DNA from: Gemmataceae bacterium
GTDB lineage: Bacteria; Planctomycetota; Planctomycetia; Gemmatales; Gemmataceae
Direction of reading: 5' to 3'
Length of the DNA stretch: 33,257 nt
NCBI GenBank assembly: GCA_019694755.1
Contig: JAIBBI010000046.1
Span: forward strand, 1-33,257
Both the position numbers and the translations under genes were made by a program. The notes under the pieces are model-generated. The model did no database searches, had not been told where the DNA came from, and was given only the letters and a program-made list of their open reading frames with translations. Below are positions 9,824-31,142 of the stretch, piece after piece. Numbering within the stretch: position 1 is the stretch's first letter; each line of letters opens with the position of its first letter.

Positions 9824-10561
9824 GGGGTCATTCTACTTTCCGTCCCCCGCGCGGCTGCCTACCATTCCCGCATGGCACGTACAGCACGAGCGTCGGCGGG
9901 CGGGGTGTGTTACCACGTCATCAATCGCGGCAACGCCCGGGCGGAGGTGTTTCACACTGCCGACGACTATGCCGCGTTCGTCCGCCTGCTCCGCGAAGCC
10001 GACGAACGGCTGCCGATCCGGTTGATCGGATACTGCCTGATGCCCAATCACTTCCACCTCGTCGTCTGGCCGCGGGCTGACGGCGACCTGAGCCGGTGGA
10101 TGCAGTGGCTCATGACCAGCCACGTCCGCCGGTACCACCGCGTGTACGAGTCCAGCGGGCACATCTGGCAGGGCCGGTTCAAGGCGTTCCCGATCCAGGC
10201 CGACGAGCACCTGCTGTCCGTGCTGCGGTACGTGGAGAGCAACCCGATCCGCGCCCGCGGCCTGCGCGTCCGCCGGGCGGAGAACTGGCTGTGGTCGTCG
10301 GCATCGAAAAAGCCGGCCGCCGACGGCCCGGACCTCTCGCCCGGCCCCACGCCCCGGCCCGCCAAATGGTCAGCTTTGCTTAACGACGGGCAGGACGACG
10401 CGACGCTGTCGGCCCTCCGGCAGAGCGTGAACCGCGGCACGCCGTTCGGCAGCGATCGCTGGAAAAAGAGCACGGCGAAGCGACTCGGTCTGGACTCGAC
10501 CATGCGGCCGCGCGGCCGGCCGCGGACCCGGCACGAAGGGACGGGAAAGTAGAATGAACCC
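9824..10561. mobile_element. RAYT transposase unit bounded by inverted repeats
   Basis: The left end 9824-9846 reads GGGGTCATTCTACTTTCC then GTCCC. The right end 10538-10561 is its inverted counterpart, GGGACGGGAAAGTAGAATG then AACCC, with about two substitutions and one indel over 24 bases. The 738-bp unit contains only the tyrosine transposase. Its right end carries the transposase stop codon and the ATG of the next gene. Related single copies occur at 11195-11214 and 16562-16581. Confidence 0.75.
9872..10552 (+). CDS. REP-associated tyrosine transposase (RAYT, Y1/HUH family)
   Basis: A 226-residue single-strand DNA transposase of the Y1_Tnp superfamily. The start GGVCYHVINRGNARAEVF is typical of the family. 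The metal-binding HUH pair is MPNHFHLVV (His60, His62), and the catalytic tyrosine is Tyr120 in LRYVESNPIRA, after GHIWQGRFKAF. The length and all core motifs are intact, so the enzyme may be active. RAYTs in other bacteria act on GTAG/GGAG-preceded REP hairpins; such hairpins occur here at 12669-12692, 15854-16001 and 24790-24813. Whether this enzyme uses those or the AAAGTAGAATG repeats that bound it is not settled by the sequence. The stop TAG lies within the right inverted repeat, followed one base later by the ATG of the acetyltransferase gene. Confidence 0.92.
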   Translation: MARTARASAGGVCYHVINRGNARAEVFHTADDYAAFVRLLREADERLPIRLIGYCLMPNHFHLVVWPRADGDLSRWMQWLMTSHVRRYHRVYESSGHIWQGRFKAFPIQADEHLLSVLRYVESNPIRARGLRVRRAENWLWSSASKKPAADGPDLSPGPTPRPAKWSALLNDGQDDATLSALRQSVNRGTPFGSDRWKKSTAKRLGLDSTMRPRGRPRTRHEGTGK

Positions 10562-18442: not shown

Positions 18443-18637
18443 TCACGCCGTGAACGCCAGCGAGTCGACGGCGCAGAACTCGGCCATCTCCGGCCGGGCC
18501 GGCTGACACGACTCGCGGGTGATCTCCGCGGCCATCTGCTTGCTCAGCCACAGTACCCGGCCGATGTCCCGCAACAGGGCGCGGACTTCGGCTTCCTGGC
18601 GACGGGTGATGGTGCGGGTGTTTTTGACAGTCTTCAT
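18443..18637 (-). CDS. Small hypothetical protein
   Basis: A 64-residue frame from the ATG at 18637 (MKTVKNTRTITRRQEAEVRA), followed by a helical stretch LLRDIGRVLWLSKQMAAEIT and a tail ending in AVDSLAFTA. It is basic at the N-terminus and has no signal peptide. Similar short helical proteins are common in planctomycetes, but I do not recognise a named family. It is convergent with the sulfatase (148-bp gap). It could be spurious, although its composition is protein-like and it lies in otherwise empty sequence. Confidence 0.5.
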   Translation of the reverse strand: MKTVKNTRTITRRQEAEVRALLRDIGRVLWLSKQMAAEITRESCQPARPEMAEFCAVDSLAFTA

Positions 18638-18993
18638 GATCGGCCCCTGTATGGTGTGTGATGCGGACACGGGATTACCATTCGCACGCCGCATGCCACA
18701 CCGGGCCGGATTCCGCGGATAGTTCGCAAGTCGCTATCGCAGCACGAGTTAAATCGGAAGCCCCGCGGCCCGCCCCCGGCCGGCTTTTGTACCCGCGATT
18801 GCACAAGCTACAACTTGAGAGAATTCTTGCGAAATGGCGAATTTCCCTACCACGCAGCCCTACAATCGCCACCCCATTACCCGCGCCGCGCAGCGGAGCG
18901 CTGCAACAATCCAAATCGTAACGCAAACAACCGTTAGCCGCGACGCGCAGCGGAGCGCTGCATCCATCCGCGTCGTGACCCCAACACTCCCCC
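18638..18993. repeat. Non-coding region with two GCAGCG-hairpin repeats
   Basis: GCGCAGCGGAGCGCTGC occurs at 18888-18904 and again at 18945-18961, 57 bp apart. Each folds as GCAGCG-GAG-CGCTGC with flanking similarity (CCGCG.CGCGCAG). It lies just beyond the 3' end of the HNH gene, so it may act as a transcription barrier or belong to another dispersed palindrome family. Nothing else recognisable is seen in this 356-bp stretch. Confidence 0.6.
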
Positions 18994-19812
18994 TCACGCC
19001 ACAAACACCCGCTCGCGGTGATACCGCAGCGCCGCCGGGTCCGGCGCAAACCGCCTGGGCAACTCCAGCGGCCGGCCTTCAATCTCCAGGAGCGAACACG
19101 TCAGCTCGGCCGACCGCGACCGCTCCCGCAGCGACGCCGACACCAGCACCCGCCCGGCGTCGTCGACTCCGATCAGCCCGCGGTCGAACGCCCGGTCGAG
19201 CAGCGCGTTGAGTGCGAGGCCGTTGGTCGGGTCGGCCCGGCGTTTCTCCGATTCGCTCCAGGGAATGATGTGCGACGCCACCAGAAGTTCCGGCACCGCC
19301 AACCCGGTGATCGCACACCGCCCCTCGTACGACGCCAGCACCGCCCCGCGGAAAAACGATTGCAGCCGACGGACGCGCACCGTACTCTCCCGGTCCGACG
19401 GACCCGCGGGCCCGGCGAGTCCGGTCGCGGCATCGCCGATGCCGAACCGCTCGGCCGCCTCCTCCGCCTGCTCGGCCAGCCGGCTCGCATCGTCGGCGAA
19501 CTCCTGCCAGATGTCGCGGTCGCCCCGGCTGACGTTGCCCAGGCCCTGCTGCGGCAGTTGCGGATCGAGGGCCGCGAAGTTGCTGGCCTTCATCGCCAGT
19601 GCCCCGGGCGACCGCCCGATCTTCGCCGCCAGCGCGACAATCTCCGGGTTCGTCCCATGAAGCCGCCCGAACGGCGTCCGCATGTACAGCCGCAACGCCA
19701 TCAACAACTGATCGCGGGTACATTCATCAACCGCACCGCGGGCGCGGAGGGCACACCGACTCACGACATCGGCGCCAAGCGAGAATTTTGGCACCTGCCG
19801 CGGGAAACTCAA
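18994..19812 (-). CDS. HNH endonuclease-like protein (HNH_2 type), coupled to the DUF2075 helicase gene
   Basis: A 272-residue protein. The N-terminal part [20 protein letters not shown] followed by [20 protein letters not shown] then ASNFAALDP resembles the helix-turn-helix-like region found before HNH_2 domains. The nuclease core is [10 protein letters not shown] (Cys166), ASHIIPW (His181), [20 protein letters not shown] (Asn197). In the family pattern as I recall it, a histidine stands in ALHDRAFD, but here Leu205 replaces it, so the metal site may be damaged. The start is probably the TTG at 19812, which overlaps the TGA of the upstream helicase gene by four bases. A later GTG in the N-terminal stretch cannot be excluded. 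The pair is probably translated together. Confidence 0.8.
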
Positions 19813-21791
19813 CCGATCATCGGAATCCCGACGCTGGCGAGGTAGTCAAACGTCTGGTCGTAATACTCGTGCCTACGTGTGGGATCTGAATCGGCTCCTT
19901 TCGGAACAACGATGACCATTCCCTGGCGGGCACGAGTGAGCAGCACGCGATAGGCGTTCTTGAGATACGTCTTTCGTTCCGGCTTCCTGATCTGGTTCCA
20001 TCGGTCTCCGCAGAACGACCAGTGCTGCCATTCTCCGGGGCTATAGCGGAAGTCGGCGTCCCATGTCACGCACGTCCAATCGAGTTCCAGTCCCTGTACT
20101 AAGAACTCCGAAGCCACGTCCTCCAGGTAGTAAGAGGATCGAACATCTTCTTTTCCGTCCAAGAACCAGTGAATCGGATCGACCGGCGATCGGACATCGA
20201 TGGCATGGGGCTTCAATCGCTGAGCTTGCGACGACACGACAATACCGTATCGTTCAGTACCGCGAGCCTTGTTTCGCAACCAACTCTTGGCAACCGGCAT
20301 ATCGCGACTCAGCACGATGGGGTAGTTGCGATCAATCGTCTTCCATGTTCGCCGGGCCTCCTCAAGTTCCTGATCGAGCAGTTGCTTCACGAGGAGCGAG
20401 ACTTTTTCCGCCCGGAACGAGCGCATCGAGACGCCGAGGTGCAACTCGTCGCGGACAAAACAGTTGGGTAGTTGCTTCGCCATATCGAGCGATTGGCCCG
20501 CGGCATACTCGCTGTCCGTCATCTTGGATGAGAGGTAAACGTGCCAATGCGGATACGCCCTTGTCAGTGACTCAATCCACTCGCCAATGCCGGCCTCGCC
20601 CGTGTTGATTTCTTGGCCACCGCCGACAAGGCAAACGATGACGGCCCAATCAGCATGGCGGTCCATGCACGAGATAAGAAACTCCGGCTCTGACAGGTCA
20701 AAGTCTGCAACACCCTTCTTTCGACTCATGAAAGAGGCGGTCTGCCCCTTGTTCCAGGCCCTCTGAGCCTCATCGAAAAGCACGACGTGCTCTATCGGAG
20801 CACCGGAACTGACCAAGCAATCGTCCCGGAAGTGGTGAACATTTTGTACGAAGGCCTTCACTTCGCTGAGGGCTTTGGCCTTGGTCAGTCGAGTTCCATT
20901 CTCCTTCTGACGTCGAACACGGTCACGTGCCAGGGCTTCTCGCAGGATCGCCACCAGCGGTCCGTTCCCAGAAAGGAAGACGCTGTATAGCTCCGAGTCC
21001 TTGTCGATGTGTTGCGTAGCGATGTTCAAACCGACCAGTGTCTTGCCGGCGCCGGGAACTCCGGTCACGAAACAGATCGACTTGTGCCCAGCCGAGCGTG
21101 ATCGCTCGATCACTTCGGAAATCGCGTCCGAGGTTTGTGTCAGATTGATCGCCCCGGCATCGCTCCTTGAAATCTCAGAGACAGAGTGACCACCGTAAAG
21201 GGCGATTGCGGCTTCGATGATGGTCGGTGTCGGGCAATATCGCCCGGCTTCCCATTTAGAGGCATCGATTTCAACGTCGGCAACAAACTCCAAGACCTTT
21301 TCAATCACTTCGGGAAGCATGCCCTCGCCACAGGAGATTGGCCCCAGAAGTTTGTCGTTCAGCGGCGTGGTCGTGACAGCGAACGTGGAGGAAGGCGCCT
21401 TCGTAGCGATGAGTACCGGTGCAATGCTACAGTTGTGGCTGGTCTCGTGAAAGTTCTTGAGATCCAGTGCGTAGTCCGTGACCTGATCGACCGCATGGGC
21501 CGGGAAGTCCTTTTCGCCAACTTTGAACTCGAGAACGAAAATCACCGCGCCGAGAAGAAGCACGACATCGATTCGCTTCCCGAGCCGCGGTATCGAATAC
21601 TCGAAGTACACTCTACCGCGGTCCCGGTACGGCCCCAGCACTTCCTTGAGAATCCGAATCTGACCTGACCATGCACGAGTCTGAGTCGTCTCAACGGAAA
21701 ACTCCGAACCGCTCGTTAGGATTCCGACGATCTCATCTTCGGACCTTTCAAGAAACGTCGCAATCGAGTCGGAGTAATAGGCGCGTTTCAT
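19809..21791 (-). CDS. PD-(D/E)XK nuclease-like plus DUF2075 helicase/ATPase protein
   Basis: A 660-residue protein from the ATG at 21791. The first ~120 residues hold RIDVVLL (Asp75) and VFVLEFKVG (Glu88, Lys90), the D...ExK pattern of a restriction-like nuclease fold. The rest is a DUF2075 superfamily 1 ATPase: Walker A GVPGAGKT (244-251), Walker [13 protein letters not shown] (335-346), [12 protein letters not shown] (561-572) and [17 protein letters not shown] (612-628), the last two corresponding to helicase motifs V and VI. It probably acts on nucleic acid, coupling ATP hydrolysis to cleavage or remodelling (inference). Codon use is visibly less GC-rich than in neighbouring housekeeping genes, which suggests transfer. 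The HNH gene follows with a four-base overlap. Confidence 0.88.
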
Positions 21792-21902
21792 TCTGCGATC
21801 CCGGGCCGGGTCCACGTTTGATATGCGTGGATACGACCTGGTGTAGCGATGCCGATGAACTCGGCGAGACGGGCCACTAGCCATTCACCGCCTGCGGTTT
21901 TG

Positions 21903-22055
21903 TTACTCCGTGTCTCCCGTGATCAGCGCCATGTATCTCGAATACGCGTATACGCGGTCGCGCTGCCGGCCGGATGTCTCCGAGAGTATCTCGACCCGGC
22001 AAAGCGACTCGATGGCCTTGGTCGCTGTGGGCTTCGTCGTCTTGAGCAAATCCAA
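21903..22055 (-). pseudogene. C-terminal remnant of a Fic family protein
   Basis: Read on the minus strand, LDLLKTTKPTATKAIESLCR followed by VEILSETSGRQRDRVYAYSR then YMALITGDTE and TAA is the winged-helix tail that closes many Fic (AMP-transferase) proteins. The frame is cut upstream by stop codons exactly where the 385-bp repeat begins (22057). The Fic core motif HPFxxGNGR is absent, so this is a dead fragment. The break at the repeat boundary suggests the gene was truncated by insertion of, or recombination at, that repeat. Confidence 0.7.
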
Positions 22056-22056
22056 G

Positions 22057-22440
22057 GGCAAGAAAAGGGGTCAGGTTAGATTCCGTCGCCTGTTCGACCA
22101 TAGGCTGACGGATCGACAGACACTTGATGCGGGGCATGAGGCGGGGTCCGGATGCCGTGGGGAAGCCGACCGGGGGCTCTGGTTGACGATAGGAGCGGGC
22201 GCGGCCGGCAGGATTCGGTGTGCCCTCCGGGCCCAGGTCAGTTGGAGTCGCCGCGTACCCCGGCCTTCAGCCGGGGCTAAGCTCGGTGTGCCCTTCGGGC
22301 CCGCGAAGCACCCGTGGCTCGGCAGGAGCCGGGCACAAGAAGGAAACGCTCCACGTCGCCCGGAGCAGATGCGTGACCGCCGGCGCGATTGGATGTAGGA
22401 TTCATTTTGCCGGAGTTGCCAGAGACGACTTTCAACGTTG
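22057..22440. repeat. 385-bp direct repeat, copy 1
   Basis: Begins GGCAAGAAAAGGGGTCAGG and ends at ACGTTG. It matches 23511-23897 in the same orientation at roughly 90 percent by eye. It contains a perfect hairpin CCCCGGC-CTTCA-GCCGGGG (22258-22276), a second hairpin around GGCAGGAGCC, and on the minus strand a short frame MPRIKCLSIRQPMVEQATES that resembles the start of an ASCH-domain protein. A diverged partial third copy lies at about 24698-24782. Confidence 0.88.
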
Positions 22441-22492
22441 GGGACGGCTGGGTGGCCGGCCACCAAAACAGTAAGAGGAGGTCAAACAAAGC

Positions 22493-23293
22493 ATGTTTGA
22501 GTGGCTCGAAGAAGAGATGGCCCGGATCAAGACCCGGAAGTTTCATCTTGTGGACGGTCCAGCACCTGCCGAACTTCGGCAAGCGGTGGAGTCGTGTAAG
22601 CTTCCACTGCCTCCGTCATACAAGGAATTTGTATTGCGGTTCGGCAATGCTGAGTTGTATCGGTACAGTACGAATTACTATGTAACGATATTTGCTGGGC
22701 CTCGAGAGGCAGAGAACTTGGATGGTGAAGCATTTGTCCAATTTGGGCGAACTTGGACATCGTATGCCTATTTTCGGGAGTCACTTCTAGTACAGAGCAA
22801 AGAATCGCCAGTGTTTGAATCGTTTCAGAATGGTATGCGAAAGACTGCGGATGGCTTTGACGAATGGTTGAAGACGAAAAGTATAGCGGCACGAAAGCGA
22901 TTTAAGAAGGTAGAATGGGAGGCCATCGAAGCAGGCCCGACTCCCTTCACCGATCATGAACGTGCCGTCGTGGCGGCCCGGAAGCAGTTTCGATGGCGTG
23001 TTGTCGGCGTCGCCCCGAATGAAGACCTGCGCTTCGAGATTCACAATGGATCGGCCATGACACTGCCATACTTGTCGGTTGGCATCCGTGGAAAAATGCG
23101 CCCGCCAAAGACCGGGCCGCTGGAAGGTGGCGGCTATCTTCCGACAGTTTCGATCCATCCGGGCGAAACCAGATTGCTCGAATACGATTGTTACAAGCAA
23201 TTTATTGCTCCCGAAGACACGGAAGTATTTGAATTGCCTGAACCGGGACCGGAAGACCGGGAGCAGTATTGGGAATTTAAATCGTCGGCCTGA
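22493..23293 (+). CDS. SUKH-like (SMI1/KNR4 family) protein, possible immunity protein
   Basis: A 266-residue protein with a strong ribosome site (AGGAGG, about 11 bases before the ATG). Residues ~20-60 contain ELRQAVESCKLPLPPSYKEF then VLRFGNAELYR, the characteristic SUKH block that begins with an L-P-SY--F motif. The C-terminal third (YLSVGIRGKMRPP, LPTVSIHPGETRLLEYDCYK) looks like an added beta domain that I do not recognise. Many SUKH proteins neutralise toxins of polymorphic toxin systems. No toxin gene is present here; the gene lies between two 385-bp repeats, so a toxin may have been lost or never co-inherited. Base composition is visibly lower in GC than the surroundings, consistent with horizontal transfer. 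Confidence 0.7.
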   Translation: MFEWLEEEMARIKTRKFHLVDGPAPAELRQAVESCKLPLPPSYKEFVLRFGNAELYRYSTNYYVTIFAGPREAENLDGEAFVQFGRTWTSYAYFRESLLVQSKESPVFESFQNGMRKTADGFDEWLKTKSIAARKRFKKVEWEAIEAGPTPFTDHERAVVAARKQFRWRVVGVAPNEDLRFEIHNGSAMTLPYLSVGIRGKMRPPKTGPLEGGGYLPTVSIHPGETRLLEYDCYKQFIAPEDTEVFELPEPGPEDREQYWEFKSSA

Positions 23294-23510: not shown

Positions 23511-23897
23511 GGCAAGAAAAGGGGTCGGGTTAGATTCCGTCGCCTGCTCGACCATGGGCTGACGGATGGACAGGCACTTGATGCGGGGTATGAGGCGAGT
23601 TCCGGATGCCGTGGGGAGGCCGACCGGGGGCTTCGGTTGACGATAGCAGTTGCGGCCCGCGGCGGCAGGATTCGGTATGCCCTCCGGGCCCGTGGAAGTT
23701 GGAGTCGCCCCGCACCCCGGCCTTCAGCCGGGGCTAAGCTCGGTGTGCCCTCCGGGCCCGCGAAGCACCCGTGGCCCGGCAGGAGCCGGGCACAAGAAGG
23801 AAACGCTCCACGTCGCCCGGAGCAGATGCGTGACCGCCGGCGCGAATGGATGTAGGATTCATTTTGCCGGAGTTGCCAGAGACGACTTCCAGCGTTG
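23511..23897. repeat. 385-bp direct repeat, copy 2
   Basis: Second copy of the repeat at 22057-22440, in the same orientation, with scattered substitutions and small indels. The hairpin CCCCGGC-CTTCA-GCCGGGG is conserved (23715-23733). In this copy the ATG of the ASCH-like minus-strand stretch has become ATA. It ends eight bases before the GTG start of the DUF3800 gene. Confidence 0.88.
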
Positions 23898-23904
23898 CGC
23901 CGAT

Positions 23905-24547
23905 GTGAGTGCCCGGAACATGCTGATTTTTGTGGACGAGTCCGGAGATACAGGATTCAAGTTTGAAAAGGGGTCGACGGATTACTTTGTGGTGACTGCG
24001 GTACTGTTCGAAGAGCCTGCCCACGCCGAGTCTTGTGCCGCGGCAATTCACTCCGTCAGGCGATCACTGAGGCTTGGTTCCAAGTCTGAGTTCAAGTTCA
24101 ACAAGGCGAATCACCGCTTCCGCATGGCGTTTTTTCGAGGCGATCCGCCCGGAGCGATTCCGGTATCACTCATTCGCGCTCAACAAACGCAAGACGGTCG
24201 GCCAGGGATTCCGGCACAAGGACTCTGCGTACAAGGCCCCCATCCGGTTTCTTTTTGAGAACATAAGACACGATCTGCCCGGTGCGACGGTTTGGTTCGA
24301 CCGCTGCGGAGACCGCGGGTTCGCAGACAACCTGAAGAACTATCTCATGAAGCGTTTGAGGGATAAAACGGGGAAGAGCCCGTTCCGGAAGATCAAGTCG
24401 GTCACATCGCACAGCAATGTGTTGATTCAAATGGCAGACATGGTCTGCGGTGCAGTAGCCTGCTCATTGAAGCCGGAGCGAACAGACGCGGCAGATTACC
24501 GAAACGCAATCAAAAGCCACGAAGTGCGGCTTCGGGTATGGCCGTAA
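23905..24547 (+). pseudogene. DUF3800 protein gene with a frameshift in a T6 run
   Basis: The first frame gives MLIFVDESGDTGFKFEKGST followed by DYFVVTAVLFEE, the typical N-terminus of DUF3800 (RNase H-like fold, 'DESGD.G'). It continues to FKFNKANHRFRMAFF and then loses similarity. The next frame takes over as FFEAIRPERFRYHSFALNKR, includes VWFDRCGDRGFADNLKNYL, and ends with VTSHSNVLIQMADMVCGAVA, the conserved 'QMADMVCGA' block. The switch falls on six Ts at 24130-24135; five Ts would restore one continuous frame of about 210 residues. This is either a real inactivation, a slippage site or a homopolymer sequencing error. The start may be the GTG at 23905 or the ATG at 23920. DUF3800 genes often lie in defence islands. 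Confidence 0.85.
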
Positions 24548-24789
24548 AAAAACCCGTCAGCCTATCCCCTTGCGGGGCACGCGCACCATACGGTGACAGT
24601 TCGGCTGGCAGGTCAATTGTGTTGAAATCATACTCGATTCACGTGCCCCGGTCAACTTTCACCGGTGGCCACACCCCCCGACCCACGCTGCGGAGCCGCA
24701 AAGTGCCCGTGTCCCGGCAGGAGCCGGGCACGGGGAGAGAGCCCACCACCTCGCCAGTTGCAGATGCGTGCCCGCCAGCGCTGGTCCAT

Positions 24790-25005: not shown

Positions 25006-26109
25006 TCAGCTCAGCGGCATGACCAGGTACTGGTAGTTCGGGCCGTTGCGGAAGAGGGCCGGGCGGGTGCCGTCGGTCATCTCCAGCGTCAGCGGGTCGT
25101 CCACTTCCAGGATCTTCAACAGGTCGATCACGTACACCGGGTCGAAGTTGATGTCGATCTTTGCCCCGTCGTACTCGATCGGGATCTCGACCTTCGACCT
25201 GCCCGTCGCCGCCCCCTGGGCCTGCAGCGTCAGCTTGCCCGCGGCAAACTGGAACATCACCCGCTTGCTCTCGTCGTCGGTCATGATCGCCGCCTGGCGC
25301 ACCGCGCTCAGCATCGGGCCGACCGCCAGCGGAATCTTCACGGCCGACTTCTTCGGCAGGATGTCCTTGTACGGCGGATACCGGCCCTCCACGAGCCGGG
25401 TATACACCAGGGCCCGGGCCGTCTGAAACAACGCCTCGTTCTGCCGGAGGCTCACCTTCACCAGCTCCGAGTCGTCGACCAGGTTCCGCTCCAGCAGGCT
25501 CATGGCCTTCGAGGGGACGAGGTGCTGGCCGCCCTTGGTGTCGTGCCCGCCGACCTCGTGGGCCTCGCCGGTGATCACGGCAAGCCGCTTGCTGTCGGTG
25601 GCCACCAGCTTGGCCGTGCTGCCCTCCAGCTCCCAGAGCACGCCCGTCATCGCGTAGCGGGTGCTCTCCTTGGCCGCGGCGAACACCGTCTTGCGGATCA
25701 TCGTCCGCAGCACGCCGGCCGTGATCTCGTGGTACTTCTTGTCGGCCTGGTCCGGCACGTCGGGAAACGCCGACGGGTCTTCGGAGGCCATCTCGAACTC
25801 GGTGCTGTGCCCGGTCACCATGACCCGCTCGGCATCGGCCTCGATGGTCAGGCGGTCGTCGGTGGATTCCCGGAGAATCGAGAGCAGCCGGCTGGCGGGT
25901 AGAATGGCGTCGCCCGGCTTCAACACCTTGGGGCTGCGGACCTCGAGGCGGATGCCCTGCTCCAGGTCCGTGGCCATCAGCGTGCACCGGTCGCCCTGGG
26001 CCACGGCCTTGATGTGCCGGAGGATCGGCTTCACGTCTTTCGAGGCGACGGCCGCGGCGACGAGCTGGCAATCCTGCAGGAGGGCTTCGCGTTCACAATC
26101 GAGTTTCAT
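25006..26109 (-). CDS. dnaN: DNA polymerase III beta subunit (sliding clamp)
   Basis: A 367-residue protein, the normal length for DnaN. It forms the ring-shaped clamp that tethers DNA polymerase III to DNA. Recognisable blocks are MKLDCEREALLQDCQLVAAA, LMATDLEQGIRLEV, LWELEGSTAKLVATDSKRLA, VEGRYPPYKDILPKKS and the C-terminus NYQYLVMPLS, equivalent to the usual YVVMPMR-like end. The ATG at 26109 is preferred over the long upstream extension because the family N-terminus starts there and GGAG lies about ten bases upstream. dnaA and recF are not adjacent, so the classical dnaA-dnaN-recF order is not kept here. Confidence 0.96.
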   Translation of the reverse strand: MKLDCEREALLQDCQLVAAAVASKDVKPILRHIKAVAQGDRCTLMATDLEQGIRLEVRSPKVLKPGDAILPASRLLSILRESTDDRLTIEADAERVMVTGHSTEFEMASEDPSAFPDVPDQADKKYHEITAGVLRTMIRKTVFAAAKESTRYAMTGVLWELEGSTAKLVATDSKRLAVITGEAHEVGGHDTKGGQHLVPSKAMSLLERNLVDDSELVKVSLRQNEALFQTARALVYTRLVEGRYPPYKDILPKKSAVKIPLAVGPMLSAVRQAAIMTDDESKRVMFQFAAGKLTLQAQGAATGRSKVEIPIEYDGAKIDINFDPVYVIDLLKILEVDDPLTLEMTDGTRPALFRNGPNYQYLVMPLS

Positions 26110-26503
26110 GGCCCTGCTCTCCGTACTTCTTCTCTGAACTAAGAAGGAAGTATTTAAATAAGGTGGAGGTAATATCAGGGGAACGAAATCCCGCTGATAA
26201 CCTCCGGGCGGCCCGGCCGAGGCACCGGCCCGGCAACGGGTTAAGGCGATCCGCACGCCGTTGGCCGACTGTCAATAACCCGTCGTTCACCGGCGGGTTA
26301 CGCTGTCGGCGGATCGGTCGCTTTTTCGCCGACCCGACGATCGATGATTCCGTCGACAGCCGTCGACACGATATCAACAGCCCATCGTCGATGCTTTCGA
26401 CGAAGGACCAACACCGGTCGGCGGCCCGAAGCGCGCAATCTTGCCCAGAGCGAGTAGTTTACCGAAATTGACCGAGCCGCACAGACAGTCACGAGGGCGT
26501 CGG
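26110..26503. promoter_or_regulatory. Divergent intergenic region upstream of dnaN and the GYF gene
   Basis: About 394 bp without a gene. It contains an AT-rich palindrome TATTTAAATA (26151-26160) about 40 bp before dnaN, the best candidate for its promoter, and an inverted repeat GTCGAC-AGCC-GTCGAC (26353-26368). I found no good DnaA box (TTATNCACA) on either strand, so an origin is not supported. Confidence 0.4.
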
Positions 26504-29721: not shown

Positions 29722-30438
29722 ATGGTGAATCGACGGGAATTCCTGCGAACGACGGCCGGGCTGGCCGCCGCGGTCACGCTGCCGGGCGTCGCCGCCGCGC
29801 AAGGCACCGTCACCGAAGGCATCGACGTATCCAACTACCAGGGCACAATCAACTGGGCGAGCGTGGCGGCAGACACGACTGCCAACGTCAAGTTTGCCAT
29901 CTGCAAGTGTACCGAAGGGCTCACCTTCACCGACGCGAAGTTCGCGACCAACTGGGCCGCCATCAAGGCGAACAACCTGATCCGCGGCGCGTACCACTAC
30001 GCCCGCTTTCAGAATGATCCCATCGCCGAGTGCAGGTTTTTCGTCAGCACCATGAAGCCGTCGAGTGGCGACCTGCCGCCCGTGGTCGATGTCGAGGCCA
30101 CCGGCAACAGTGGCTTCACGGGCACGCAGATCAAGAACTGGCTCCAGCGGTTCTGCGCGGAGCTGAAGAAGAAGACCGGCCGGCCCGGCATCATCTACAC
30201 CGGCTACTACTACTGGCGCGATAGCGCGGGCAACTCGCCGAACAACTGGGGTTTCCCGCTCTGGCACGCCCAGTATTCATCGAGTCCGACGCTCGGAAAC
30301 AGCTACCTGGCATGGCCGGGCGGCTGGACGTTCTGGCAATACACATCATCGGGCACCGTCGCCGGCATCAGCGGCGCGGTCGACCGCGACCAGTTTAACG
30401 GTTCCCTGGCGACCCTCAACGGGCTGCGACTCCCATGA
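29722..30438 (+). CDS. GH25 lysozyme-like protein with a Tat-type signal (copy 1)
   Basis: A 238-residue exported protein. The N-terminus NRREFLRTTAGLAAAVTLPG has a twin-arginine RRxFLR motif followed by a hydrophobic stretch and an AAA cleavage site. The catalytic domain is a GH25 muramidase-like barrel: GIDVSNYQGTINW (Asp35), KFAICKCTEGLTF, IRGAYHYARF, LPPVVDVEATG (Asp123, Glu125), GIIYTGYYYW, LWHAQY and FWQYTSSG...VDRDQFNG. All the expected acidic residues are present. GH25 enzymes cleave the MurNAc-GlcNAc bond of peptidoglycan. Its stop overlaps the start of copy 2 by four bases (ATGA), so the two are translationally coupled. Confidence 0.9.
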   Translation: MVNRREFLRTTAGLAAAVTLPGVAAAQGTVTEGIDVSNYQGTINWASVAADTTANVKFAICKCTEGLTFTDAKFATNWAAIKANNLIRGAYHYARFQNDPIAECRFFVSTMKPSSGDLPPVVDVEATGNSGFTGTQIKNWLQRFCAELKKKTGRPGIIYTGYYYWRDSAGNSPNNWGFPLWHAQYSSSPTLGNSYLAWPGGWTFWQYTSSGTVAGISGAVDRDQFNGSLATLNGLRLP

Positions 30439-31142
30439 CCGACCGCCGCGAGTTTCTGACCGGCTGCGTGACGCTCGCGGCCGCCGCCGCCACCGGCAGT
30501 GTCGCCATCGGGCAGGGCACCGTCACCGAAGGCATCGACGTATCCCACTGGCAGGGCACGATCAACTGGCCGTCGGTCGCCGCCGCGGGCATCAAGTTCG
30601 CGTTCTGCAAATGCTCCGAAGGCACGACCTACGTCGACCCGAAGTTCTCGACCAACTGGCCGGCCATCAAGGCCAACAACATCATCCGCGGGGCGTACCA
30701 CTTCGCCCGGTTCATGAACGACCCGATCGCCGAATGCCGGCATTTCGTCAGCACGCTCAAGCCGGTGAGCGGCGACCTGCCGCCCGTCGTGGATGTCGAG
30801 GCCCGGGACAACGCGGGCTTCACCGGCACCCACATCAAGAATTGGCTCCAGCGATTCTGTGCCGAGTTGAAGAAGAAGACCGGCCGGCCGGGCATCATCT
30901 ACACCGGCTTCTATTATTGGCGTGACGAGGCGGGCAACTCGCCGAACAACTGGGGCTTCCCGCTCTGGCACGCCCAGTATGCCGCCAGCCCGACCCTCGG
31001 CGACAGCTACCTCGCCTGGCCCAACGGCTGGAGCTTCTGGCAGTACACCAGTACCGGCAGCGTCAGCGGTATCACGGGAAACGTCGACCGCGATCAGTTC
31101 CGGGGCACACTCGCCGCGCTCGACGGCTGGCGCATCCCATGA
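30435..31142 (+). CDS. GH25 lysozyme-like protein with a Tat-type signal (copy 2)
   Basis: A 235-residue paralogue of the preceding gene, closely similar over the whole length. It also begins with a twin-arginine motif (DRREFLTG) and keeps Asp35 (GIDVSHWQG), Asp120 and Glu122 (PPVVDVEARD) and the final FWQYTSTG...VDRDQFRG. Two residues are missing after WPSVAA relative to copy 1. The start overlaps the end of copy 1 by four bases, and its own stop overlaps the DUF1559 start by four bases. A tandem duplication inside an operon is the simplest origin. Retained catalytic residues in both suggest both are functional, perhaps on different substrates or at different times. Confidence 0.9.
   Translation: MTDRREFLTGCVTLAAAAATGSVAIGQGTVTEGIDVSHWQGTINWPSVAAAGIKFAFCKCSEGTTYVDPKFSTNWPAIKANNIIRGAYHFARFMNDPIAECRHFVSTLKPVSGDLPPVVDVEARDNAGFTGTHIKNWLQRFCAELKKKTGRPGIIYTGFYYWRDEAGNSPNNWGFPLWHAQYAASPTLGDSYLAWPNGWSFWQYTSTGSVSGITGNVDRDQFRGTLAALDGWRIP

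Follow-up and report, generated by a model that had tools for sequence, protein, structure and literature searches.

A PDC-S41 nuclease-helicase, a catalogued phage-defence candidate, beside a probably uncoupled HNH gene in a Gemmataceae genome

The stretch of Gemmataceae DNA analysed here (33,257 nucleotides; the window) is one contig of a 5.6 Mb genome and carries, side by side on the minus strand, genes for a nuclease-helicase and for an HNH protein. An earlier note on this DNA read the two as one translational unit with the pattern of an anti-phage system, which raises the question of whether a motor and two nucleases form a defence module at this locus. The HNH neighbour itself is real, with a clear HNH_2 domain (Table 1). 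However, the two genes are no new two-gene system, and the HNH gene is a separate gene found only occasionally beside the helicase.

The nuclease-helicase gene is an open frame of 660 codons on the minus strand, with its ATG at 21791 and its stop at 19809. Its start methionine coincides in the alignment with that of complete homologues, confirming the 660-residue protein read by the note, and a longer ORF of 691 codons was rejected as the protein because complete homologues align from the methionine of ATG 21791. The product matches the PADLOC profile PDLC05014 (PDC-S41) at E 4.1e-288 with 955 bits over profile positions 1-652 of 657, which identifies it, by profile, as a predicted member of an already catalogued family of phage-defence candidates; the earlier remark that no named system could be matched was thus wrong for the helicase. 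A full-text literature search found no paper that mentions PDC-S41 by name, no paper on defence with DUF2075 and no phage phenotype for PDC-S41, and we know of none.

Table 1. Positions and supporting evidence of the features around the nuclease-helicase and HNH genes
Feature	Position	Strand	Basis
HNH protein, start uncertain (coordinates for GTG 19764; the claimed overlap needs TTG 19812)	18994..19764	-	PADLOC PDLC04132
HNH_2 domain (PF13391)	19162..19317	-	Pfam E 8.8e-14
Dispersed-repeat fragment between helicase stop and HNH core	19739..19776	-	inverted relative to copies 22195-22459 and 23652-23916
PDC-S41 nuclease-helicase, 660 aa, intact	19809..21791	-	PADLOC PDLC05014 and 35 homologue loci
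SLFN group 3 (ex-DUF2075) SF1B helicase domain, residues 237-630	19902..21083	-	Pfam PF09848 E 1.2e-81; fold matches SLFN11/14, Dda, RecD2, Pif1
Walker A G244VPGAGKT251	21039..21062	-	34-sequence alignment, all residues invariant except A248 (nearly invariant)
N-terminal PD-(D/E)XK nuclease domain, residues 1-185	21237..21791	-	alignment of 34, AF2 model, PDB fold matches
Fic-like C-terminal winged-helix stretch upstream of helicase	21885..22060	-	translation read by eye
Repeat copy upstream of helicase, pieces 22057-22195 and 22195-22459	22057..22459	+	repeat comparison

The N-terminal D..ExK nuclease-like domain proposed by the note is supported by structure prediction. The AlphaFold (AF2) model of residues 1-185 has a pLDDT of 95 and a core of helix, three strands, helix and strand, and its PDB fold matches, in lists that leave room for families absent from them, are mainly PD-(D/E)XK enzymes, including Can2 (Z 9.4, rmsd 4.3, 147 aligned; the Can2 and Cdn1 matches together span Z 9.4 to 8.1), McrC (Z 8.0, rmsd 4.3, 134 aligned), EndoMS (Z 7.8, rmsd 4.1, 99 aligned), Hjc (Z 6.5, rmsd 2.7, 92 aligned) and NucC (Z 6.1). 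In an alignment of 34 sequences (the window protein and 33 relatives with 47-68% identity), E64, R73, D75, E88-F-K90 (the E88-x-K90 motif), Q103 and D106-Y107 are invariant in all 34. Because Can2-like nucleases are also able to cut RNA, the substrate could be RNA instead of DNA.

The DUF2075 helicase named in the note also stands, with the Schlafen group 3 domain scoring 275 bits against a PF09848 cut-off of 24. In the same 34 sequences, Walker A (244-251) is invariant except for A248, which is nearly so, and Walker B (D340-E-A-Q343) is invariant throughout. The model of the whole protein (pLDDT 84) has SLFN11 and SLFN14 as its top Foldseek matches and also resembles SF1B helicases of the RecD2/Dda/Pif1 kind, and the helicase fold matches include DSH9 (Z 17.3), SLFN11 (Z 16.9), Dda (Z 15.9) and RecD2 (Z 13.6); a helicase-profile search of PDB sequences gave no match.

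The HNH protein matches PADLOC PDLC04132 at E 4.5e-81, with the match beginning at its residue 28, and the HNH core residues are intact. Its relatives begin 5 to ~10 residues ahead of a W-T-R-D/E motif (WTRDQLL), and relatives with longer ORFs have an internal methionine at that same place. In the window, the codon for the motif tryptophan reads cysteine and the nearby start codon is absent; the only in-frame starts further upstream are of the GTG or TTG type and lie in the interval between the motif and the helicase stop. The four-base overlap claimed by the note exists as ORF geometry, but it rests on TTG 19812, ~25 codons upstream of where the relatives start, and is therefore an unlikely, probably fortuitous start. 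The same interval holds a fragment of a dispersed repeat, of which a 21-bp piece, TCGGTGTGCCCTCCGCGCCCG, has 7 copies in the genome, 5 of them on this contig, against zero genome matches for the reversed control pattern. Translational coupling is rejected on the grounds of the homologue starts and this repeat fragment, and a scan of 18500-22500 found no promoter.

The base composition changes at the same place, with GC content rising from 56% to 71% at the interval between the genes. The helicase gene (56% GC, GC3 66%) fits the lower-GC island in which the note had placed both genes, whereas the HNH gene (71%, GC3 87%) resembles the remaining contig. The HNH gene has an altered 5' end and may still yield its protein, and the simplest history would be the insertion or rearrangement of a lower-GC cassette beside a resident HNH gene, replacing its 5' end. 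The dispersed repeat reaches ~400 bp, its two long copies are 90-92% alike, and pieces of it recur on three further contigs, which favours the island being part of this genome. Repeat copies at 22057-22459, 23511-23916 and 24688-24781 flank a SUKH-like gene.

The Fic, SUKH and DUF3800 remnants mentioned in the note hold only in part. The DUF3800 gene (23650-24547) is indeed split by a frame change, with profile positions 1-51 in one frame and 62-146 in another, and its second half weakly matches PADLOC PDC-M04A. The SUKH ORF, by contrast, is intact, its profile match being weak (E 5e-4, below the curated cut-off), and the Fic-like stretch was recognized by eye only, a domain search of the genome having turned up no Fic domain. 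A gene for the DNA polymerase III beta subunit (sliding clamp; 25006-26256) adjoins the island. Elsewhere in the window, two adjacent and very similar genes (29722-31142) have products resembling, by eye, secreted GH25-type lysozymes, and the product of 9872-10552 resembles, also by eye, a REP-associated Y1 transposase with the motif PNHFHLV.

Beyond this genome, a profile search detects PDC-S41 in 48 of 392 Planctomycetota genomes (12%), and homologues occur in Chloroflexota, Nitrospirota, Bacteroidota, Pseudomonadota, Bacillota, Omnitrophota and further phyla. A tree of 49 sequences requires 12 changes of the planctomycete label, at least 7 of them forced by starred branches; therefore, the gene moves between phyla. 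Near-identical helicases sit on terminal branches of 0.02 and 0.03. In so widespread a family, the pairing of a PD-(D/E)XK nuclease with a Schlafen-type helicase offers a candidate mechanism.

Taken together, the helicase gene probably encodes a self-sufficient, mobile, ATP-driven DNA restriction factor (PDC-S41), with the HNH gene separate, uncoupled and unneeded for its function. We favour this reading because the PD-(D/E)XK and SF1B domains are intact, both active sites are strictly conserved, the distribution is patchy and mixed, and there is no common partner. The helicase part would load on DNA that is single-stranded or contains junctions, for example intermediates of phage replication or linear molecules entering the cell; ATP-driven movement or unwinding would feed a strand to the attached nuclease, which would nick or degrade it in a manner similar to the reported action of Nhi. 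The HNH protein would be a separate restriction-type endonuclease that adjoined the helicase once the lower-GC cassette had been inserted or rearranged between dispersed repeats, without translational coupling and dispensable for helicase function. Activity against phage is what we infer from the PADLOC profile, the restriction-modification neighbours, mobility and enzyme type, on which the defence assignment rests. The anti-phage pattern seen by the note thus survives for the nuclease-helicase, through its PDC-S41 match, its patchy, phylum-mixing spread and two relatives in or beside R-M/Mza clusters, but not for the HNH pair.

Other gene neighbourhoods bear on where such a factor might obtain its specificity. 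The immediate neighbours of PDC-S41 fall into 62 Pfam families downstream and 69 upstream. A common partner gene was rejected, as only low-frequency recurrences were seen, including MazG-like (3), NUDIX (3) and Fic (3) genes, methyltransferases and a second Schlafen helicase (L041, L045). In these two Omnitrophota loci (L041:920-3672, L045:5203-7967), PDC-S41 is preceded by a small and a large gene; the small one of L045 is MazG-like, and the large one of L045, 33 bp from PDC-S41, encodes the second helicase of Schlafen group 3, which also has a Peptidase_S24 domain. Compared with a crude control of random genes from the same genomes, PADLOC families show no excess near the helicase (61 near PDC-S41, 76 in the control), a comparison of little use because PD-T4-6 kinase-type models make up most of the control. 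Across the 48 genomes with PDC-S41, none of ~79 Fic matches lies within 2.5 kb of the helicase (nearest, 2.9 kb), and 5 of 27 C5 methylase matches do, against 0.04 expected. Together with the HNH_2 proximity described below, this methylase proximity indicates that PDC-S41 tends toward restriction-type genes without a fixed partner.

This tendency could mean that the helicase is the motor of modification-sensing restriction, with specificity supplied by exchangeable C5 methylases, Mza or HNH genes. One relative lies within a run of Vsr, C5 methylase, PDC-S41, DUF4420 and AIPR genes (G220; L110:3945-11104), possibly an R-M/Mza variant that contains PDC-S41; in another genome (G045), PDC-S41 follows a C5 methylase and faces MutL-like (an MzaB match) and Z1 genes; and a third genome (G142) retains a decayed remnant. 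Comparable operons, in which MORC or paraMORC genes accompany an SF2 helicase, an RE-fold nuclease, a cytosine methylase and Vsr, have been described (PMC2292703). However, the window's own genome has no C5 methylase match in a profile search, the linkage occurs in only 5 of the 48 genomes, and of two near-identical helicases one stands alone (L109/G326) and the other lies beside methylase and Mza-type genes (L110), which makes this explanation rather unlikely. A broader version holds that PDC-S41 is an exchangeable restriction motor with basal activity alone that repeatedly recruits HNH_2 or C5 methylase/Mza partners, the window pair being a snapshot of one such association; this, too, we regard as a tentative idea with a low chance of being right.

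Cooperation between the two neighbours themselves, in which the motor would deliver DNA to two nucleases, seems less plausible still. The genes share a strand and their ORFs abut without a gap. However, the single translational unit of the note does not recur: none of 35 homologue loci from genome_contigs holds an orthologue of the window HNH, and in 63 of 66 loci with a readable 3' neighbour (~95%) no HNH_2 gene lies directly downstream, the exceptions being L025, L120 and L128. No other surveyed relative has a same-orientation helicase-HNH arrangement with the window subfamily, and one has it convergent (G319). Among the 392 genomes, the window HNH subfamily occurs in 33, PDC-S41 in 48 and both in 5, against 4.0 expected, so the co-occurrence that the note had suggested checking gives no sign of fixed linkage. 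Proximity of HNH_2 genes in general, on the other hand, exceeds chance. The 48 PDC-S41 genomes hold 22 HNH_2 matches, 4 of which lie within 2.5 kb of PDC-S41: that of the window, that of G319 (same subfamily, convergent), that of G386 (another subfamily, downstream on the same strand) and that of G144 (upstream). With the window left out, 3 of 21 remain where 0.03 would be expected; a uniform model, which takes no account of the clustering of defence genes, gives a binomial p of ~5e-6. An unrelated HNH gene also follows the helicase by 4 bp in L025, and in G386/L120 another follows it closely on the same strand.

These cases argue against a fixed PDC-S41 and HNH system, as they mix subfamilies and strands instead of conserving adjacency and orientation, and on the helicase tree L025, L120 and the window, which carry such genes, do not group together. 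A fixed helicase-HNH operon is accordingly rejected by the neighbourhood surveys of homologue loci. The enrichment of HNH_2 genes at varied positions and orientations is more readily explained by shared defence islands than by a fixed pair, and it leaves some room for a functional link; with the overlap start also unlikely, we consider cooperation at this locus improbable. We consider it equally improbable that the protein serves the host or a mobile element in repair or recombination, as a RecD2/Dna2-like nuclease-helicase with no defence role: its helicase fold resembles RecD2, UvrD and Pif1, and several relatives have housekeeping neighbours (dnaE-like in L123/L163, pheT-like in L117), but the gene occurs in only a small share of the sampled genomes, is horizontally mixed, and is rare in phage and plasmid records (1/50,697 and 4/72,556) and on viral contigs (3 loci). 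Recognizing that the two neighbours do not form the unit they seem to form avoids a false system name.

Among known systems, the closest likeness of the window protein is to PADLOC PDC-S41, a single-gene phage-defence candidate that it matches over its full length and from which nothing examined sets it apart, the family being itself a prediction. Nhi of staphylococci, a single-gene nuclease-helicase (PMC12904381), likewise joins nuclease and helicase in one polypeptide and is proposed to act on phage DNA; it appears to be the nearest functional precedent, yet another family by profile, since the match to the Nhi profile is confined to the Walker A region (residues 248-303 of the 691-residue ORF, E 2.1e-5). 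The Mza/MORC R-M operons resemble the gene sets in or beside which the relatives in G220 and G045 lie, but no MutL-like, Z1, DUF4420, AIPR or C5 methylase protein is present among the window proteins scanned. The HNH protein shares HNH domain homology with HNH_2 restriction endonucleases (PDB 6yex 'HNH endonuclease'; ScoMcrA-type), from which it differs in the altered 5' end of its gene, and it scores 49 bits against a cut-off of 180 for the phosphorothioate-dependent HNH REase model (NF045808). Finally, Schlafen group 3 proteins (SLFN11, SLFN14) have a homologous PF09848 helicase and head the whole-model fold matches, but where they carry the Schlafen core RNase domain, of which no profile appears among the Pfam matches of the window protein, the latter has an N-terminal domain that is PD-(D/E)XK by motif and fold. 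A Schlafen-type helicase tied to a different nuclease fold in a bacterial enzyme bears on the origin of the antiviral Schlafens.
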